This document shows positions 58,731 through 63,959 of a stretch of 64,000 nt of DNA, in pieces. Source of the DNA: Planktotalea sp. (GTDB lineage: Bacteria > Pseudomonadota > Alphaproteobacteria > Rhodobacterales > Rhodobacteraceae); assembly GCF_018607995.1 (NCBI RefSeq), contig NZ_JABBAL010000002.1, forward strand, positions 1 to 64,000, in the 5' to 3' direction. The notes under the pieces are model-generated. The model was not told the DNA's origin. It ran no database searches and saw only the letters and a program-made list of their open reading frames with translations. Position numbers and translations under genes: made by a program. Every line of letters begins with the position of its first letter. Position 1 is the stretch's first letter.

Positions 58731-59107
58731 CGGAAGACACCATCGCCGCGTGTCACGGTTTCGCCGCCGGTCATGCCAGAGACGTCAACTGGATTGGTGA
58801 TAACCAACTCACTCTTTGGCAAGCGGGGAAAAGCAACTTGATCGACCTTGCCAAATTGATCAGGGCGCAAAGAGGACAAACCCAAACGGTCGAAATTCAC
58901 ATCAGCAAGGTCACGCAAACGATCTGGTCGGTTCAAGTAAGCCCATTCCGCACGCAACACCGTCAAACGCGCGCGTGCTTGGCCGATTTCGTGGTTGATT
59001 TGTTCCGTTTTGGCGATCTCCGCCTGCGTTTGATAGTTCTCTTGATATGCCCAAAAGGCGAGACCAATCACGGCAAGGGCCGTTACGATATATAACAATG
59101 AACGCAT
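58727..59107 (-). CDS. ftsL: Cell division protein FtsL
   Basis: A 126-residue bitopic membrane protein of the divisome. An N-terminal helix (LLYIVTALAVIGLAFWAYQE) is followed by a coiled coil (AEIAKTEQINHEIGQARARL, then VLRAEWAYLNRPDRLRDLAD). Sequence conservation is low in this family, so the call leans on position between rsmH and ftsI and on the helix-coil plan, both of which are typical. It starts directly after rsmH. Confidence 0.85.
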   Translation of the reverse strand: MRSLLYIVTALAVIGLAFWAYQENYQTQAEIAKTEQINHEIGQARARLTVLRAEWAYLNRPDRLRDLADVNFDRLGLSSLRPDQFGKVDQVAFPRLPKSELVITNPVDVSGMTGGETVTRGDGVFR

Positions 59108-60091
59108 TTAACGATCCCTTCGTAACATTGGCATGCCAAGCGTTTTCGGCGCGATATCGCCCGCAGCTGCATCGGTGCGGCATGCAAGACGCAGCTTGGC
59201 GGAACGTGCACGCACGTTGTTTTCTAATTCAAACTCAGACGCGGTAATGGCTTTACGGCCAAGCAGTTCAAACGCTGGTTTTTCGACATCAAGTTGGGGC
59301 GCAAAACGATTGGCATTACCCGTCGTGCCCGCGCGCGACTGTAAAAAGCGTTTCGCCATGCGATCTTCCACCGAATGAAACGTCACAATGGCCAGCAAAC
59401 CACCTGGCGCAAGAGCGCGTTCTGCAGCCATAAGGCCGCGATAAAGTTCACCGTACTCATCATTCACCGCAATGCGCAGTGCTTGGAAGCTTCGCGTTGC
59501 AGGGTGGCTTTGCCCCGGCTTCTTGCGGGGCATACATTTCTCGATCAACCCTGCAAGCTGCAAAGTCCTGGTGATAGGTGTCGCTGCGCGCAGCTCAACA
59601 ATTGCGCGCGCAATTCGGCGAGAGGCGCGTTCTTCACCAAAATTATAAAGGATTTCAGCAATTTCTTCTGCGTCATAGTCGTTGACGATATCAGCAGCAC
59701 TTTGCCCTTCTTGCCCCATGCGCATATCCAAGGGACCATCCCGCATGAAAGAAAAGCCACGCTCTGCACGATCGAGTTGCATCGAGGAGACCCCAAGGTC
59801 GAGGACGACACCGTTCAAATCTTGAGCAAACTCGGCCATGTCCGAAAACACGCCCCGTTGCTGGATCAAGCGCGCACCGTATTGATCGGCCCAAGGCTGC
59901 GCCATTTCAAAGGCCAATGGATCGCGATCTACCGCAATGACGCTATCCGCACCCGCATCCAAAAGTGCGCGCGTATAGCCACCTGCCCCAAATGTGCCAT
60001 CCAACCAACAGCCAGATATAGGGTCGGCCGCTTTTAGGATAGGCTCTAAAAGAACCGGAATGTGAGAGGCAGAGATGGCAGCCTGCGTCAT
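59108..60091 (-). CDS. rsmH: 16S rRNA (cytosine1402-N4)-methyltransferase
   Basis: A 327-residue SAM-dependent methyltransferase that modifies C1402 in the decoding site. It begins [19 protein letters not shown], has the SAM motif [19 protein letters not shown] near residue 32, [19 protein letters not shown] with GPLDMRMG, and the catalytic-region [14 protein letters not shown] near 240. Length and motifs are normal. It lies 3 bases after mraZ. Confidence 0.96.
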
Positions 60092-60094
60092 GAA

Positions 60095-60610
60095 TCACTC
60101 CGCAGGACTGGATGTTGGAGCACCATCAAGAAACTCGAGCGGGTCGAAATCGTCGGGCAGCTCTTCAAGCCACTCTTCGGTTTTGGCCAACTCGTCAGCC
60201 TCATAGGTCTCGGTTTTCCAAATCTGGAACGTGTCACCCGCTGCGATAAAGAACGCTTCTTTATCCAGCTCGATTTTCTGACGCAGCTTGGCAGGCAAAA
60301 CCAGGCGACCTGTCTCATCAATTGTAGTCGGGAAAGACTGGCCATGGAAGAGACGCTGAAGCATTTTACGCTGCATAGATCCACGTGGGAGGGCGTCAAT
60401 CTTGGCGTCCACCTCCTCGATCGCTTCCATGGTGTAACACTCGAGGTAATTGCGACGATGATCGCCGTACACAATGACCAATTCAGGAGGAAGACCATCG
60501 GTCAAATTGGGGTCAGCCGCTTCGATTACACGACGAAAAGAGGCTGGGATCGAGACCCGCCCCTTTGTATCCACCTTATGGTGGCTTTCGCCTCTGAATC
60601 TGCGTGACAC
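60095..60610 (-). CDS. mraZ: Transcriptional regulator MraZ
   Basis: A 171-residue protein with two AbrB-like DNA-binding halves: HHKVDTKGRVSIPASFRRVI (near residue 10) and TIDETGRLVLPAKLRQKIEL (near 90). It forms rings that bind repeats upstream of the dcw operon and represses it. The start is GTG 60610 (MSRRFRGESHHKV), matching the family, with GGGACG 8 bases upstream. The long frame from 60748 runs through the leader hairpin. A candidate binding site is at 60895-60929. Confidence 0.95.
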   Translation of the reverse strand: MSRRFRGESHHKVDTKGRVSIPASFRRVIEAADPNLTDGLPPELVIVYGDHRRNYLECYTMEAIEEVDAKIDALPRGSMQRKMLQRLFHGQSFPTTIDETGRLVLPAKLRQKIELDKEAFFIAAGDTFQIWKTETYEADELAKTEEWLEELPDDFDPLEFLDGAPTSSPAE

Positions 60611-60661
60611 GCCAATTCGTCCCTTTGCCCTGCCCCCGAAACCTTGCCCAAAAACTAGGGC

Positions 60662-60883
60662 ATAAAAATATGAAAGGCGGATCAAGCTGCTGCCACTGCT
60701 TGATCCGCCAACGTCCCGCTGCCGGGAATGTCCGATCGCGCGCGCCACCTGGGGGGATGTCTGCTCGCTCGCGCGCCGGATCTGGTTGGGAGGATTATGG
60801 CGGGTGCCTGTATGAAACCTGACTTAGCGGTTCTTGTTAGCTGGGATCGTGTAGCGTCCCTTTGTTGAGTTACCCGCTCTCCT
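60662..60883 (-). ncRNA. UpsM-like small RNA from the mraZ leader
   Basis: In Rhodobacter sphaeroides the dcw operon has a very long leader from which the abundant sRNA UpsM is made by termination ahead of mraZ. Here the leader contains a 12-bp hairpin with a U-rich tail at the matching place (60676-60709), 66 bases before the mraZ GTG. A transcript of about 200 bases ending there would begin near 60883, next to a candidate MraZ operator. The 5' end is estimated from the R. sphaeroides size; I could not verify sequence similarity. No ORF fits the segment. Confidence 0.55.
60676..60709 (-). terminator. Leader terminator of the dcw operon
   Basis: GGCGGATCAAGC and GCTTGATCCGCC pair perfectly (12 bp) around a 10-base loop. 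On the minus strand the hairpin is followed by TTTCATATTTTT. It lies inside the mraZ leader, so full-length mRNA must read through it. This makes it an attenuator and the likely 3' end of the UpsM-like RNA. Confidence 0.8.
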
Positions 60884-60894
60884 CTTCTACCATT

Positions 60895-60929
60895 AGGGAT
60901 GCCATGGGAATTAATGGTAATCAATAGGA
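60895..60929. promoter_or_regulatory. 10-bp-periodic repeat, candidate MraZ operator
   Basis: On the plus strand four related 5-mers start exactly 10 bases apart: AGGGA (60895), TGGGA (60905), TGGTA (60915) and TAGGA (60925). MraZ of E. coli binds TGGGN repeats with 5-base spacers in front of mraZ. The position just upstream of the expected transcript start fits autoregulation. A minus-strand -10 such as TAATGG (60895-60890) overlaps the first repeat, but no good -35 is seen. Confidence 0.5.
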
Positions 60930-61394
60930 AATATTGACTACAGCTTGTTGAATGTTGCCTTTGGCGATTTGTACGCACAACATTTAGAAAGAACATTTCA
61001 AGAACAAAATCTAGTGGTAGCGAAAAAATAAGCAGCGACTACTACATGTAGATCAAGAGCAATTCTTGAATTTTTTCCCATATTTTCCCGAATCGAAGCA
61101 CAACAGTTCCGTTCGGGACGAATTTTCAATGCAATATCACGCCCCCACCCTAAGCATCACATCTGATTCACCGTGTAAATCGTCCTCAACGCCATGATTC
61201 GTTGTTGAGTCTTTGTAGCGACACCCAAATATGGGTGTGATTTCACAGCGCTGCGCCATGAAATCCCACATGACCCATGAATACCCAAAGCGCCTCCGCT
61301 TCTCACACACTCTTGTCGTAACTGCACGTTGAGTTCGCTGAAATTACCTGCAACCCTGCTGCGAGCTCTCATTTTGCCCAAGACAGGACAGCCC
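60930..61394. other. Gene-free spacer between the dcw operon and an SDR gene
   Basis: A 465-base divergent spacer with no ORF that I can support. The first 150 bases are AT-rich. It holds a candidate plus-strand terminator at 61053-61076 and a 7-bp hairpin, ACACCCA-AATA-TGGGTGT (61221-61238). Stop codons and lack of codon pattern argue against a hidden protein gene. An unannotated small RNA on the plus strand remains possible. Confidence 0.5.
61053..61076 (+). terminator. Small hairpin with T6 tail, candidate sRNA terminator
   Basis: TCAAGA-GCAAT-TCTTGA followed by A and TTTTTT. The stem is only 6 bp and AT-rich. No gene on the plus strand ends here, so if it is real it would end a small RNA or upstream-antisense transcript that starts in 60900-61000. 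Confidence 0.35.
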
Positions 61395-62147
61395 ATGCCA
61401 GACTTCGCCATCTATCCTAGCCTCAAAAACAAGACCGTCATCGTATCGGGTGGCGCACAGGGCATTGGCGCTGAGATGGTGAAAGCCTTTGCTGCTCAGG
61501 GCGCACGCGTCGGGTTTCTGGATCTTCATGAAGCCGCAAGCGCCGATCTGGCGGCGGAATTAGACAACGTCAGCTACAAAATTTGCGATCTACGCGATAT
61601 CTCCGCGCTTCAAGCTGCCCTCAAGACACTAACGGACAAATTAGGGCCAGCACATGTGTTGGTGAACAATGCCGCACGCGATGATCGTCACGATTGGCGG
61701 GACGTTACGCCAGACTATTGGGACGAGCGTCAAAACACTAATCTGCGTCACATGTTCTTTGCGATCCAAACGATTGCGCCAGGGATGATCGCGGCGGGCG
61801 GTGGCTCCATTATCAATATGGGATCGAACTCATGGTGGGAGGCCGGTGGCGGTTTTCCAGCCTACGCCACGGCCAAAGCGGCAGTACACGGAATGACCCG
61901 CACAATGGCGCGCGATCTCGGCGATCACCGCATTCGCGTCAATACGGTGGTGCCCGGCTGGATCATGACAGAGCGGCAAAAAGAGCTTTGGGCGACGCCA
62001 GAAGCGCTTGAGGCGCATCGTGCACGTCAGTGCTTGCCTGATCTGATTGATCCGGTTTACGTGGCGCGCATGGTCTTATTTCTCGCTTCTGACGATGCCG
62101 CAATGTGCAGCGCGTGCAACTACATGGTCGAAGCGGGCTCTATATAG
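61395..62147 (+). CDS. Short-chain dehydrogenase/reductase
   Basis: A 250-residue NAD(P)-dependent oxidoreductase. It has the nucleotide motif VSGGAQGIGAEMVKAF (near residue 15), an Asp after strand 2 (FLDLHE) that favours NAD(H), the LVNNAARDD motif, catalytic Ser in IINMGSNSWW, and YATAKAAV (YxxxK) near 158. It ends with ASDDAAMCSACNYMVEAGSI, usual for sugar or polyol dehydrogenases. ATG 61395 has AGGAC 6 bases upstream; the frame from 61329 has no support. A single gene; the substrate is unknown. Confidence 0.9.
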   Translation: MPDFAIYPSLKNKTVIVSGGAQGIGAEMVKAFAAQGARVGFLDLHEAASADLAAELDNVSYKICDLRDISALQAALKTLTDKLGPAHVLVNNAARDDRHDWRDVTPDYWDERQNTNLRHMFFAIQTIAPGMIAAGGGSIINMGSNSWWEAGGGFPAYATAKAAVHGMTRTMARDLGDHRIRVNTVVPGWIMTERQKELWATPEALEAHRARQCLPDLIDPVYVARMVLFLASDDAAMCSACNYMVEAGSI

Positions 62148-62156
62148 TGTTCACGC

Positions 62157-63233
62157 TTACGCCATACCGCCTTCGACTAAACCTTTGGCAAGCTCAGCAT
62201 AGGCTCGCGCCATATCTCCTTCACCCGCTGCAATAGGCGTACCGCCATCCCCTGCAAGACGCGTATCAAGGTCAATCGGCAAAGCACCAAGTAGTGGCAC
62301 TTTTAAGCGCTCAGCTTCTGTTGCGACGCCTCCTTGGCCAAAGATCGCATGTTCTGATCCGCAATCAGGACATTTGAACATCGACATGTTCTCGATCAGG
62401 CCCAACACAGGCGTTTTGAGCGTCGCGAACATATCCAGCGCTTTGCGTGCATCTAGAAGAGCGACGTCTTGAGGGGTGCTGACAACAATCGCGCCGGTGA
62501 CCTGACTTTTCTGACAAAGCGTGAGCTGCACATCGCCCGTGCCCGGTGGCAAATCAACGATGAGCACATCAAGCTCGCCCCACTCCACTTGCCCCAGCAT
62601 TTGCTGCAATGCACCCATGAGCATGGGACCACGCCACACGATGGCTTTGTCAGGATCAATCATCAGGCCAATCGACATCATAGTGACGCCATGCGCCTTC
62701 AATGGAATGATGGTTTTTCCGTCAGGGCTGGCAGGACGTTTGTTTACGCCCATCATTCGTGGCTGGGATGGTCCATATATATCTGCATCGAGCAAGCCAA
62801 CGCGGCGGCCTTGCTTCGCCAATGCAACCGCAAGGTTGGACGAGACAGTCGATTTACCAACGCCGCCTTTTCCAGAGCCAATAGCAAGAATGCGGTCCAC
62901 ACCAGAGACAGGCGCTGGCCCGCCCTCTTGTGGTTTGGGATGCCCACCAATCTTCAAACTGGGCGGCGCAGGTTTTGCAAGTGCAGGTCCATGCGCTGTT
63001 AATGCCGCATTGACTGTGCGCGCACCGACCACAGCCGCTACCGCAGTTTCAGCGGCTTTGCGCAAAGGTTCCATTTGCTGCGCGATCGCGGGGCTTGGGG
63101 CCTCGATCACAAATCGCACCGTAGCGTCCTCCACAGAAAGCGCTCGAATCATATCGCGGCTGATCAGATCGCCACCATCAGGCAGAGCTAAACGTGCCAA
63201 AGCATCACGAATGTCTGTCTCTATTTGGCTCAT
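62157..63233 (-). CDS. apbC: Iron-sulfur cluster carrier protein Mrp/ApbC
   Basis: A 358-residue P-loop ATPase that carries and delivers Fe-S clusters, for which complex I with its many clusters is one obvious client. Residues 1-80 are a MIP18-like domain (DIRDALARLALPDGGDLI). The deviant Walker A, GSGKGGVGKSTVSSNLAVAL, is near residue 117; DLPPGTGDVQL follows; the cluster-binding CPDCG is near 285. The gene converges with the SDR gene across 9 bases. Confident. Confidence 0.94.
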   Translation of the reverse strand: MSQIETDIRDALARLALPDGGDLISRDMIRALSVEDATVRFVIEAPSPAIAQQMEPLRKAAETAVAAVVGARTVNAALTAHGPALAKPAPPSLKIGGHPKPQEGGPAPVSGVDRILAIGSGKGGVGKSTVSSNLAVALAKQGRRVGLLDADIYGPSQPRMMGVNKRPASPDGKTIIPLKAHGVTMMSIGLMIDPDKAIVWRGPMLMGALQQMLGQVEWGELDVLIVDLPPGTGDVQLTLCQKSQVTGAIVVSTPQDVALLDARKALDMFATLKTPVLGLIENMSMFKCPDCGSEHAIFGQGGVATEAERLKVPLLGALPIDLDTRLAGDGGTPIAAGEGDMARAYAELAKGLVEGGMA

Positions 63234-63778: not shown

Positions 63779-63847
63779 GGCCAGCTCACTCCTTCCAGAA
63801 GAGCTCGGCCGAACATGGTGGCAGTAAAGTCCTCCCATTTTACTGCC
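63779..63847 (+). ncRNA. CcsR-like (cuckoo family) sRNA unit 1
   Basis: Two hairpins follow the DUF1127 stop by 15 bases. Hairpin 1 (63779-63810) has GGCC and AGCTC arms and a loop containing CTCCTTCC. Hairpin 2 (63820-63847) has a perfect 9-bp stem, GGCAGTAAA/TTTACTGCC, and the loop GTCCTCCCAT. Loops with CCTCCC pair with Shine-Dalgarno sequences. Two-hairpin units with such loops, in series after a DUF1127 gene, are the hallmark of CcsR RNAs. There is no U tract, so the unit is probably cut out of a longer transcript. Confidence 0.75.
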
Positions 63848-63880
63848 GCTACTAACAACGGTCTAGAACGGACCACTCAT

Positions 63881-63959
63881 AGCACGACGCTTTCTCCTCC
63901 CTTCAAGCGGCGTGCTTATATAGAACGACGATGTGTCCTCCCACACATCGTCGTTTTTT
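63881..63959 (+). ncRNA. CcsR-like (cuckoo family) sRNA unit 2 with terminator
   Basis: Hairpin 4 (63881-63916) has 12-base arms with one mismatch, AGCACGACGCTT and AAGCGGCGTGCT, and the loop TCTCCTCCCTTC. Hairpin 5 (63924-63955) has a perfect 13-bp stem, AACGACGATGTGT/ACACATCGTCGTT, and the loop CCTCCC, followed by TTTT. The last hairpin therefore acts as both loop motif carrier and Rho-independent terminator of the ccaF1-ccsR transcript. Unit 1 and unit 2 are separated by a largely single-stranded linker (63848-63880) that would suit RNase E cleavage. Confidence 0.75.
63924..63959 (+). terminator. Terminator of the ccaF1-ccsR transcript
   Basis: A 13-bp perfect stem with a 6-base loop (CCTCCC) and a T run directly after it (6 T including the stem end, then C and GTTTTTG). 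It is the strongest terminator of the window. The remaining 40 bases to the window end hold nothing recognisable. Confidence 0.9.

Follow-up and report, generated by a model that had tools for sequence, protein, structure and literature searches.

The early ending of most transcripts of an essential operon has so far lacked an explanation. In Rhodobacter sphaeroides, read-through of the leader of the dcw operon has been estimated at about 1 in 100 (PMC5089854), and by published accounts no sRNA of that species is more abundant than the one made from this leader, UpsM. The same question is raised by a locus in Planktotalea sp. The window analysed here is the whole stretch of 64,000 nucleotides, in which mraZ, the first dcw gene (60095..60610, (-); PF02381, E=2.6e-18), is followed by the second, rsmH/mraW (59108..60091, (-); PF01795, E=7.3e-87). 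The GTG start of mraZ at 60610 was chosen by homology; the open frame itself runs from 60748. The original prediction had placed a perfect 12-bp hairpin with a U-rich tail between the likely promoter region and mraZ, and sequence, coordinates and fold all agree with this.

The hairpin, R4 (60676..60709, (-)), consists of a 5' stem arm GGCGGATCAAGC (60709-60698, (-)), a 10-nt loop AGTGGCAGCA (60697-60688, (-)) and a 3' stem arm GCTTGATCCGCC (60687-60676, (-)), and is followed by the U-rich tail TTTCATATTTTTATG (60675-60661, (-)). It folds at -25.5 kcal/mol (z = -5.3) and none of 200 shuffles is as stable, which is also true of the fold of the 244-nt leader (z = -3.8, 0/200). As in leaders of the UpsM type, R4 is predicted to be a strong Rho-independent terminator inside the mraZ 5' UTR. 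Its U tract is interrupted (TTTCATATTTTT), so the efficiency of termination at R4 is uncertain. The hairpin is absent from the output of a simple terminator scan of the window, probably because its loop of 10 nt exceeds the limit of 8 set by the tool. Upstream of R4 lie a short hairpin, R3 (CCCGGCAGCGGG; 60715..60726, (-)), recognised from fold and alignment, a hairpin with a large near-invariant loop, R2 (GAGCAGACATCCCCCCAGGTGG; 60731..60780, (-)), recognised from alignment and covariation, and the conserved motif of R1 (CAGGTTTCATACAGGCA; 60805..60821, (-)). The full leader is predicted to measure 278 nt. The UpsM-like sRNA, identified by a covariance model match and by its fold, is the 5' part of this leader and would be about 227 nt long (60662..60888, (-)) if transcription stops at R4. 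In Rfam no family reaches its gathering score anywhere in the window, and the leader gives only scores below threshold.

MraZ is present in 146 of the 149 genera sampled from the family. We used 120 leaders including that of the window, two of them shortened by contig ends, with a duplicate (L114) excluded. The first 61, namely the window and 60 others spread over the range of MraZ identity, were chosen before any leader had been seen; of those added later, 20 are leaders that the covariance model described below missed or scored low, and were picked for that reason, and the remainder came from its match lists. Counts on 118 leaders include 38 that are referenced to the end of the model match and not to mraZ, and that were picked for having a match. 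Where distance to mraZ or selection matters, counts were therefore repeated on mraZ-anchored loci and on the 61 preselected leaders. Alignment A1 holds 52 of the first 61 leaders. In six of the others no R2 or R4 motif could be recognised, and in L008, L028 and L037 the motif search had picked the wrong place, so these nine were left out.

All 52 aligned leaders have the R2 hairpin with its near-invariant loop, the short R3 hairpin and R4. Across the alignment 97.6% of cells are paired, compared with 30-43% in slid controls, and 18 of 28 pairs have changes on both sides; neither figure is reached in any of 500 shuffles. Cells with two-sided changes number 103, against 24.6 in shuffles, and in the R4 stem 12 of 14 pairs have changed on both sides. 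Among the first 61 leaders a hairpin followed by a T tail occurs within 175 nt before mraZ in 56 (2/183 shuffles), and in five there is no terminator-like hairpin by the criteria used. R1 and R2 are as conserved as the R4 hairpin, the best-conserved part of R1 being the motif GCAGGTTTCATACAGGCA within GCAGGUUUCAUACAGGCA. The R4 loop motif TGGCAGC (within 60688-60697 of the window, (-)) is found in 53 of the first 61 leaders, an unselected count; it is identical in all 52 leaders of A1, but these had been selected for at most one mismatch in the R4 loop. A fixed loop sequence such as TGGCAGC is not needed for a terminator loop.

The transcript of the window leader would begin near 60888 (-), judging by eye from homology with R. 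sphaeroides, in which transcription starts 268 nt before mraZ. This position is 5 nt off the end coordinate, 60883, of the original prediction. Immediately upstream is a putative promoter (60892..60931, (-)) with four repeats of 10-bp period that resemble MraZ boxes (TTTCCTATTG, ATTACCATTA, ATTCCCATGG and CATCCCTAAT), a -35-like TTGATT (60924-60919, (-)) and a -10-equivalent ATCCCT (60900-60895, (-)). Read on the opposite strand, the repeats are TGGGA boxes, which are a known form of MraZ binding sites, and we infer that MraZ probably represses its own operon at this box-covered promoter. An array of three boxes scoring at least 12/15 was found in 42 of the first 61 leaders (1/305 shuffles), the remaining 19 having none, and in 52 of 80 mraZ-anchored leaders (1/400 shuffles), where its median position is 300 nt before mraZ. 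With mixed reference points the count is 77/118. In the last 75 nt before mraZ none of the 80 mraZ-anchored leaders has such an array, and promoters of other types are possible there. A conserved, putative MraZ-box promoter is present at the place expected for an UpsM-type leader, about 270 nt before mraZ, and in R. sphaeroides the transcription start sits just downstream of the same repeat array. A further pair of TGGGA-like boxes with a 10-bp period (CGGGAAAATATGGGAAAAA) is seen at about 61070-61092 (-), some 180 nt upstream of the predicted start.

In Escherichia coli the MraZ boxes at mraZ1p take the form of TGGGN repeats. The window shares with mraZ1p such repeats of 10-bp period at a dcw promoter. 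It differs in that some 300 nt separate its repeats, which cover the promoter, from mraZ, with a terminator in between, whereas the E. coli mraZ 5' UTR is 38 nt long (PMC5089854).

A covariance model of the R2-R3-R4 core (model R1), built from the 52 leaders of A1, matches the window at G000:C9:60662-60790:- (E=1.3e-27, 126.9 bits), the window being among the training sequences. In one genome of the alignment, G051, the match covers 694,719-694,849 (122.8 bits) and starts 1 nt from the RNase E site reported at position 694,720, where the UpsM processing product begins at its 5' side (PMC6238624). Because of this agreement we take G051 to be R. sphaeroides 2.4.1, in which the published 5' UTR of 268 nt puts the start of UpsM at 694,636. 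The equivalent of the RNase E site in the window, placed by homology, lies at 60789..60790 (-), where cleavage would be expected. The claim that the window has the same arrangement as R. sphaeroides is borne out, since the leader occupies the same place, has the same R1-R2-R3-R4 anatomy and is found by the same covariance model, and in the alignment with UpsM that had been proposed as a check the two sequences align over the whole length of A1. As judged from sequence, the window leader is the orthologue of the UpsM leader of the dcw operon. The two are alike in position before mraZ, in the GTG start of mraZ, in the strong terminator, in the promoter with the same repeats, and in leader length (278 nt in the window and 268 nt in R. 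sphaeroides). They differ in the length to the tail (about 227 nt and 206 nt, respectively) and in the gap between terminator and mraZ, which in the window is 65 nt from the stem or 50 nt from the tail, compared with a published 84 nt; the window also lacks an ATG-started sORF over the terminator. By analogy with R. sphaeroides, most transcripts of the window would stop before the division genes.

The core model matches 132 of the 149 genera sampled from the family; among high-quality genomes alone, 121 of 132 have a match. The training set consisted of 52 of these leaders. The core is absent in 17 genera, 11 of them represented by high-quality genomes, and in 7 of the 13 no-match genera whose leaders were read there is a terminator-like hairpin of other sequence before mraZ. 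At mraZ-anchored loci a match of at least 35 bits lies just upstream of mraZ and on the same strand in 66 of 79, 19 of which had been chosen for absent or weak matches. In a sample of the order, all of whose genomes belong to this family, the model matches 147 of 149 genomes. In a sample of the class, which does not list every family, it matches 4 of 289 genomes, all four from the family, and none of the 285 others; filtering in these searches was strict, with few candidates scored in each genome. The original prediction had also proposed that control of division genes by leader termination would extend beyond Rhodobacter. The spread of the leader agrees with this; its novelty does not stand, since Weber et al. 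(2016; PMC5089854) already describe the UpsM leader as a feature of the family Rhodobacteraceae. What is added here is a conserved putative partner, which we call sRNA A, and three conserved RNA motifs. The comparison of about 150 genera pinpoints the letters that matter, which lie in the R1 motif and in the loops of R2 and R4, and sRNA A provides a concrete candidate partner for the R1 motif and for part of the R2 loop.

The complement of the core of the R1 motif has one further mismatch-free occurrence in the window's own genome (G000:C24), where it falls in a small gene preceded by a CTTGGA...TATAA promoter and closed by a strong terminator. This gene (G000:C24:126865-126940, (-)) is predicted to encode a trans-encoded, single-copy RNA of about 72-76 nt, sRNA A. 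The 18-mer TGCCTGTATGAAACCTGC, allowing at most two mismatches, was found in 146 of 149 genomes with the leader itself counted, and among the matches listed 39 of the 40 fetched places outside the leader belong to this one conserved sRNA; the place in G133 does not, and alignment A2 was made without it. An sRNA A model built from 40 sequences matches 146 of 149 genera and 131 of 132 high-quality genomes. The match is single in 145 genera, and one genus has a second, weak match of 36 bits. Over about 40 nt sRNA A is kept nearly letter for letter across the genera of the family. In the class sample its model matches 8 of 289 genomes, four of them family members at 104-106 bits and four of them non-family candidates at 31-34 bits. 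A 40-base sRNA A pattern occurs in at least 117 stretches of public genomes. The 80 matches listed have Rhodobacterales titles apart from four that name only Alphaproteobacteria; we take names such as Ruegeria, Paracoccus, Sulfitobacter and Leisingera to be Rhodobacterales, and Neomegalonema was checked. Ruegeria pomeroyi is among the carriers of sRNA A.

In both the window genome and G051, sRNA A (L135, 1464-1535, (-), and L312) has a solute-binding-protein gene on one side and, on the other, a dehydrogenase gene whose type is shared by the two genomes and which is 3-hydroxybutyrate dehydrogenase-like, as judged from translations. Its layout of hairpin, linker and terminator resembles that of the Rfam families SorX (RF02784) and suhB/mmgR (RF00519). 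We rejected membership in either, as the scores lie below Rfam's own cut-offs (22.9 bits with a gathering score of 46.6 for SorX; 19.9 and 20.5 bits with a cut-off of 41 for suhB/mmgR). None of the 12-letter pieces of sRNA A and of the leader occurs in the literature text searched, in which sequences are rarely part of the main text.

The best-conserved part of R1 is complementary to the loop (UUGCCUGUAU) and the 3' stem of the sRNA A hairpin. A second site, CGAGCAG in the R2 loop (60761..60767, (-)), is complementary to the invariant 5' end of sRNA A, CTGCTCG, and in 52 of the first 61 leaders this CGAGCAG is followed by the C-run of R2. A complement of at least 7 nt to the sRNA A 5' end is present somewhere in 91 of 118 leaders, compared with 6.2% of shuffles. 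Complementarity to the sRNA A consensus over at least 11 contiguous nt is found in 51 of the first 61 leaders (2/610 shuffles), and over at least 9 contiguous nt in 58 (21/610 shuffles); for the 118 leaders the corresponding counts are 97 (1/2360 shuffles) and 110 (60/2360 shuffles). In the window itself the duplex of the sRNA A hairpin with R1 reaches -34.5 kcal/mol, whereas duplexes with shuffled leaders average -20.1 (sd 3.3), the best of 500 being -30.3 kcal/mol. In G051 the longest contiguous complement between sRNA A and UpsM is 12 nt, which was equalled in 6 of 3000 random 72-nt windows.

The substitutions seen in the R1 site differ along its length. In the leader octamer that faces the sRNA A loop (AUACAGGC), 14 substitutions occur in the 103 leaders with an ungapped site, and by hand tally 10 of them keep the pair with sRNA A as G-U where about 21% would be expected. 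This gives P = 7e-5, or 0.002 with transitions favoured, values that are optimistic because genera are not independent. At the other ten positions 17 of 152 substitutions keep the pair, about the chance level, so that over the whole 18-nt site 27 substitutions preserve pairing and 139 break it. An overall substitution pattern of this kind gives no support to pairing along all 18 nt, and these counts would place selection for pairing only in the loop-facing octamer. Since the leader site can change while sRNA A does not, some further constraint must also act on sRNA A. In one genome (G029) both the leader (L083) and sRNA A (L187) have diverged, and the altered 5' end of its sRNA A has a 10-nt match elsewhere in the leader, an anecdotal observation made by eye.

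The R1 and R2 sites for sRNA A follow each other in the antiparallel order that pairing requires, with the equivalent of the RNase E site between them. Pairing at both would thus open the linker for cleavage, which suggests that sRNA A may clamp the leader on both sides. This model does not explain the strong conservation of the R4 loop motif TGGCAGC and of the R2 C-run. A link between the R4 loop and sRNA A (CUGCC) is, at 5 nt, too short to claim, and the idea that the R2 C-run pairs with runs of G before mraZ was dropped, as no co-variation was apparent by eye.

The explanation that we favour, and which as a whole we consider very probable, combines an UpsM-type dcw leader, a MraZ-box promoter, a stop at R4 and pairing with sRNA A. 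Transcription would start near 60888, from a promoter overlain by MraZ boxes through which MraZ probably represses its own operon. RNA polymerase would make R1, R2 and R3 and then mostly stop at R4, releasing a structured sRNA of about 227 nt, while a minority of polymerases would read through into mraZ and the division genes. sRNA A would pair at two places: the loop UUGCCUGUAU and 3' stem of its hairpin would bind the R1 motif, while the R2 loop would be bound by the sRNA A 5' end, CUGCUCG. This two-site pairing would hold the linker open for cleavage by RNase E and remodel the leader. In R. sphaeroides, processing of UpsM is reported to depend on Hfq and RNase E (PMC5089854).

Other readings of the hairpin and leader bear on the same observations. 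R4 might be an ordinary terminator for upstream transcription, with the mraZ promoter downstream of it. The transcription start has indeed been placed by homology, and a scan for sigma-70 consensus promoters over 59000-62500 gave no site; the zero count means that the scan does not recognise promoters of Planktotalea sp. However, the next upstream gene, a short-chain dehydrogenase (SDR) gene at 61395-62147 (+), is divergent, so R4 is not the terminator of the directly preceding gene. The conserved MraZ-box promoter about 300 nt before mraZ, with no array in the last 75 nt of any of the 80 leaders, and the conservation of R1 and R2, which a plain terminator does not require, also argue against this reading, and we regard it as very improbable. 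Even less credible is attenuation by a leader peptide, in which translation of a short ORF would control R4. An sORF::lacZ fusion had weak activity in R. sphaeroides (PMC5089854), and in the window an in-frame GTG at 60748 opens the frame that runs into mraZ. Yet Weber et al. report the sORF only in R. sphaeroides species (PMC5089854), no ATG-started ORF of at least 5 codons begins in the window leader, and the conservation that we see is of RNA motifs.

The leader might also be a riboswitch or a protein-sensing attenuator, in which formation of R4 depends on a ligand or protein bound to R1-R2 and the sRNA arises only incidentally. A riboswitch was proposed for R. sphaeroides by Weber et al. 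(PMC5089854), and such an element might be expected to show unpaired stretches that hardly vary, as R1 and the loops of R2 and R4 do. The same authors called R1 hardly conserved (PMC5089854). Complementarity to sRNA A, however, accounts for the conserved stretches of R1 and of part of R2, an alternative R2-R4 pairing is, according to Weber et al. (PMC5089854), not kept in the family consensus, and no Rfam riboswitch matches. We consider a sensing leader of this kind unlikely, though less so than either of the two readings above, and prefer termination at R4 combined with pairing by sRNA A.

An sRNA that targets UpsM has been described in R. sphaeroides by Grutzner et al. (2021). This orphan sRNA, StsR, is reported to be 72 nt long and to bind both UpsM and the dcw 5' UTR, whereby a site for RNase E is exposed (PMC8307010, PMC8625941); it has its own RpoHI/RpoHII-dependent promoter and also targets the rpoE mRNA near the start codon. 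We see an even chance that sRNA A is StsR, in which case the network is the published one of R. sphaeroides and only its breadth is new. The predicted length of sRNA A from start to U-tract, 72-76 nt, falls in the size class of StsR, a conserved CTTG...TATAA promoter of its own is predicted from sequence, and the RNase E position lies between its two putative pairing sites in the leader. The chromosomal position, however, does not match. In G051 sRNA A lies on chromosome 1 at 1,443,998-1,444,073. StsR is RSs0827, and RSs numbers are reported to rise along the chromosome (RSs0682 at 694,720, RSs1624 at 1,724,505 and RSs2461/SorX at 2,598,224), so that by interpolation, an indirect test, it should lie near 850 kb.

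Near that place, at 858 kb, is another conserved sRNA-like locus, B (G051:C4, about 858,050-858,140, (+); L318:18050-18140), which was delimited by eye next to rlmB and consists of TTCACTGTCCCTCGTTCCGC and a terminator. It has an 11-nt complement to R. sphaeroides UpsM, and among four U-tract hairpins in the 800-900 kb region of G051 the most stable is in this locus. A complement of at least 11 nt also occurs in 28 of 3000 random 72-nt windows, 276 of the 3000 being without a readable match, and the length of locus B, estimated by eye, fits 72 nt less well than that of sRNA A. A 261-nt query spanning locus B together with the rlmB end finds a match in 33 of 61 genomes, many only in part, and 37 of 118 leaders have a complement of at least 8 nt to locus B compared with about 7% of shuffles, a moderate excess. 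Locus B is possibly StsR instead. sRNA A, if it is not StsR, might be a second, undescribed division regulator, with StsR as a further partner at a more variable site, a reading that we put forward tentatively. In some genera, loci related to B (L343-L354) have upstream a TTAA-N7-TTAA element like a CtrA site, as seen by eye.

If sRNA A is StsR, the UpsM-StsR pair is family-wide. If it is not, it would be a regulator for which no description was found in the literature searched, and the dcw leader would act as a hub for several sRNAs, of which sRNA A would be the ancestral partner. The expression of division genes would be tied to a conserved sRNA and not to a species-specific one, and the question can be addressed in any roseobacter or Paracoccus that is open to genetic work. 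The window also encodes a DUF1127 protein (PF06568; 63548-63763, (+)), some 3 kb away from the UpsM leader, and after this gene, at about 63780-63955 (+), hairpins with CCUCC stretches and then a terminator can be seen by eye. By position and layout this gene and the hairpins correspond to the CcaF1-CcsR1-4 sRNA locus of R. sphaeroides (RSP_6037/RSs0680).
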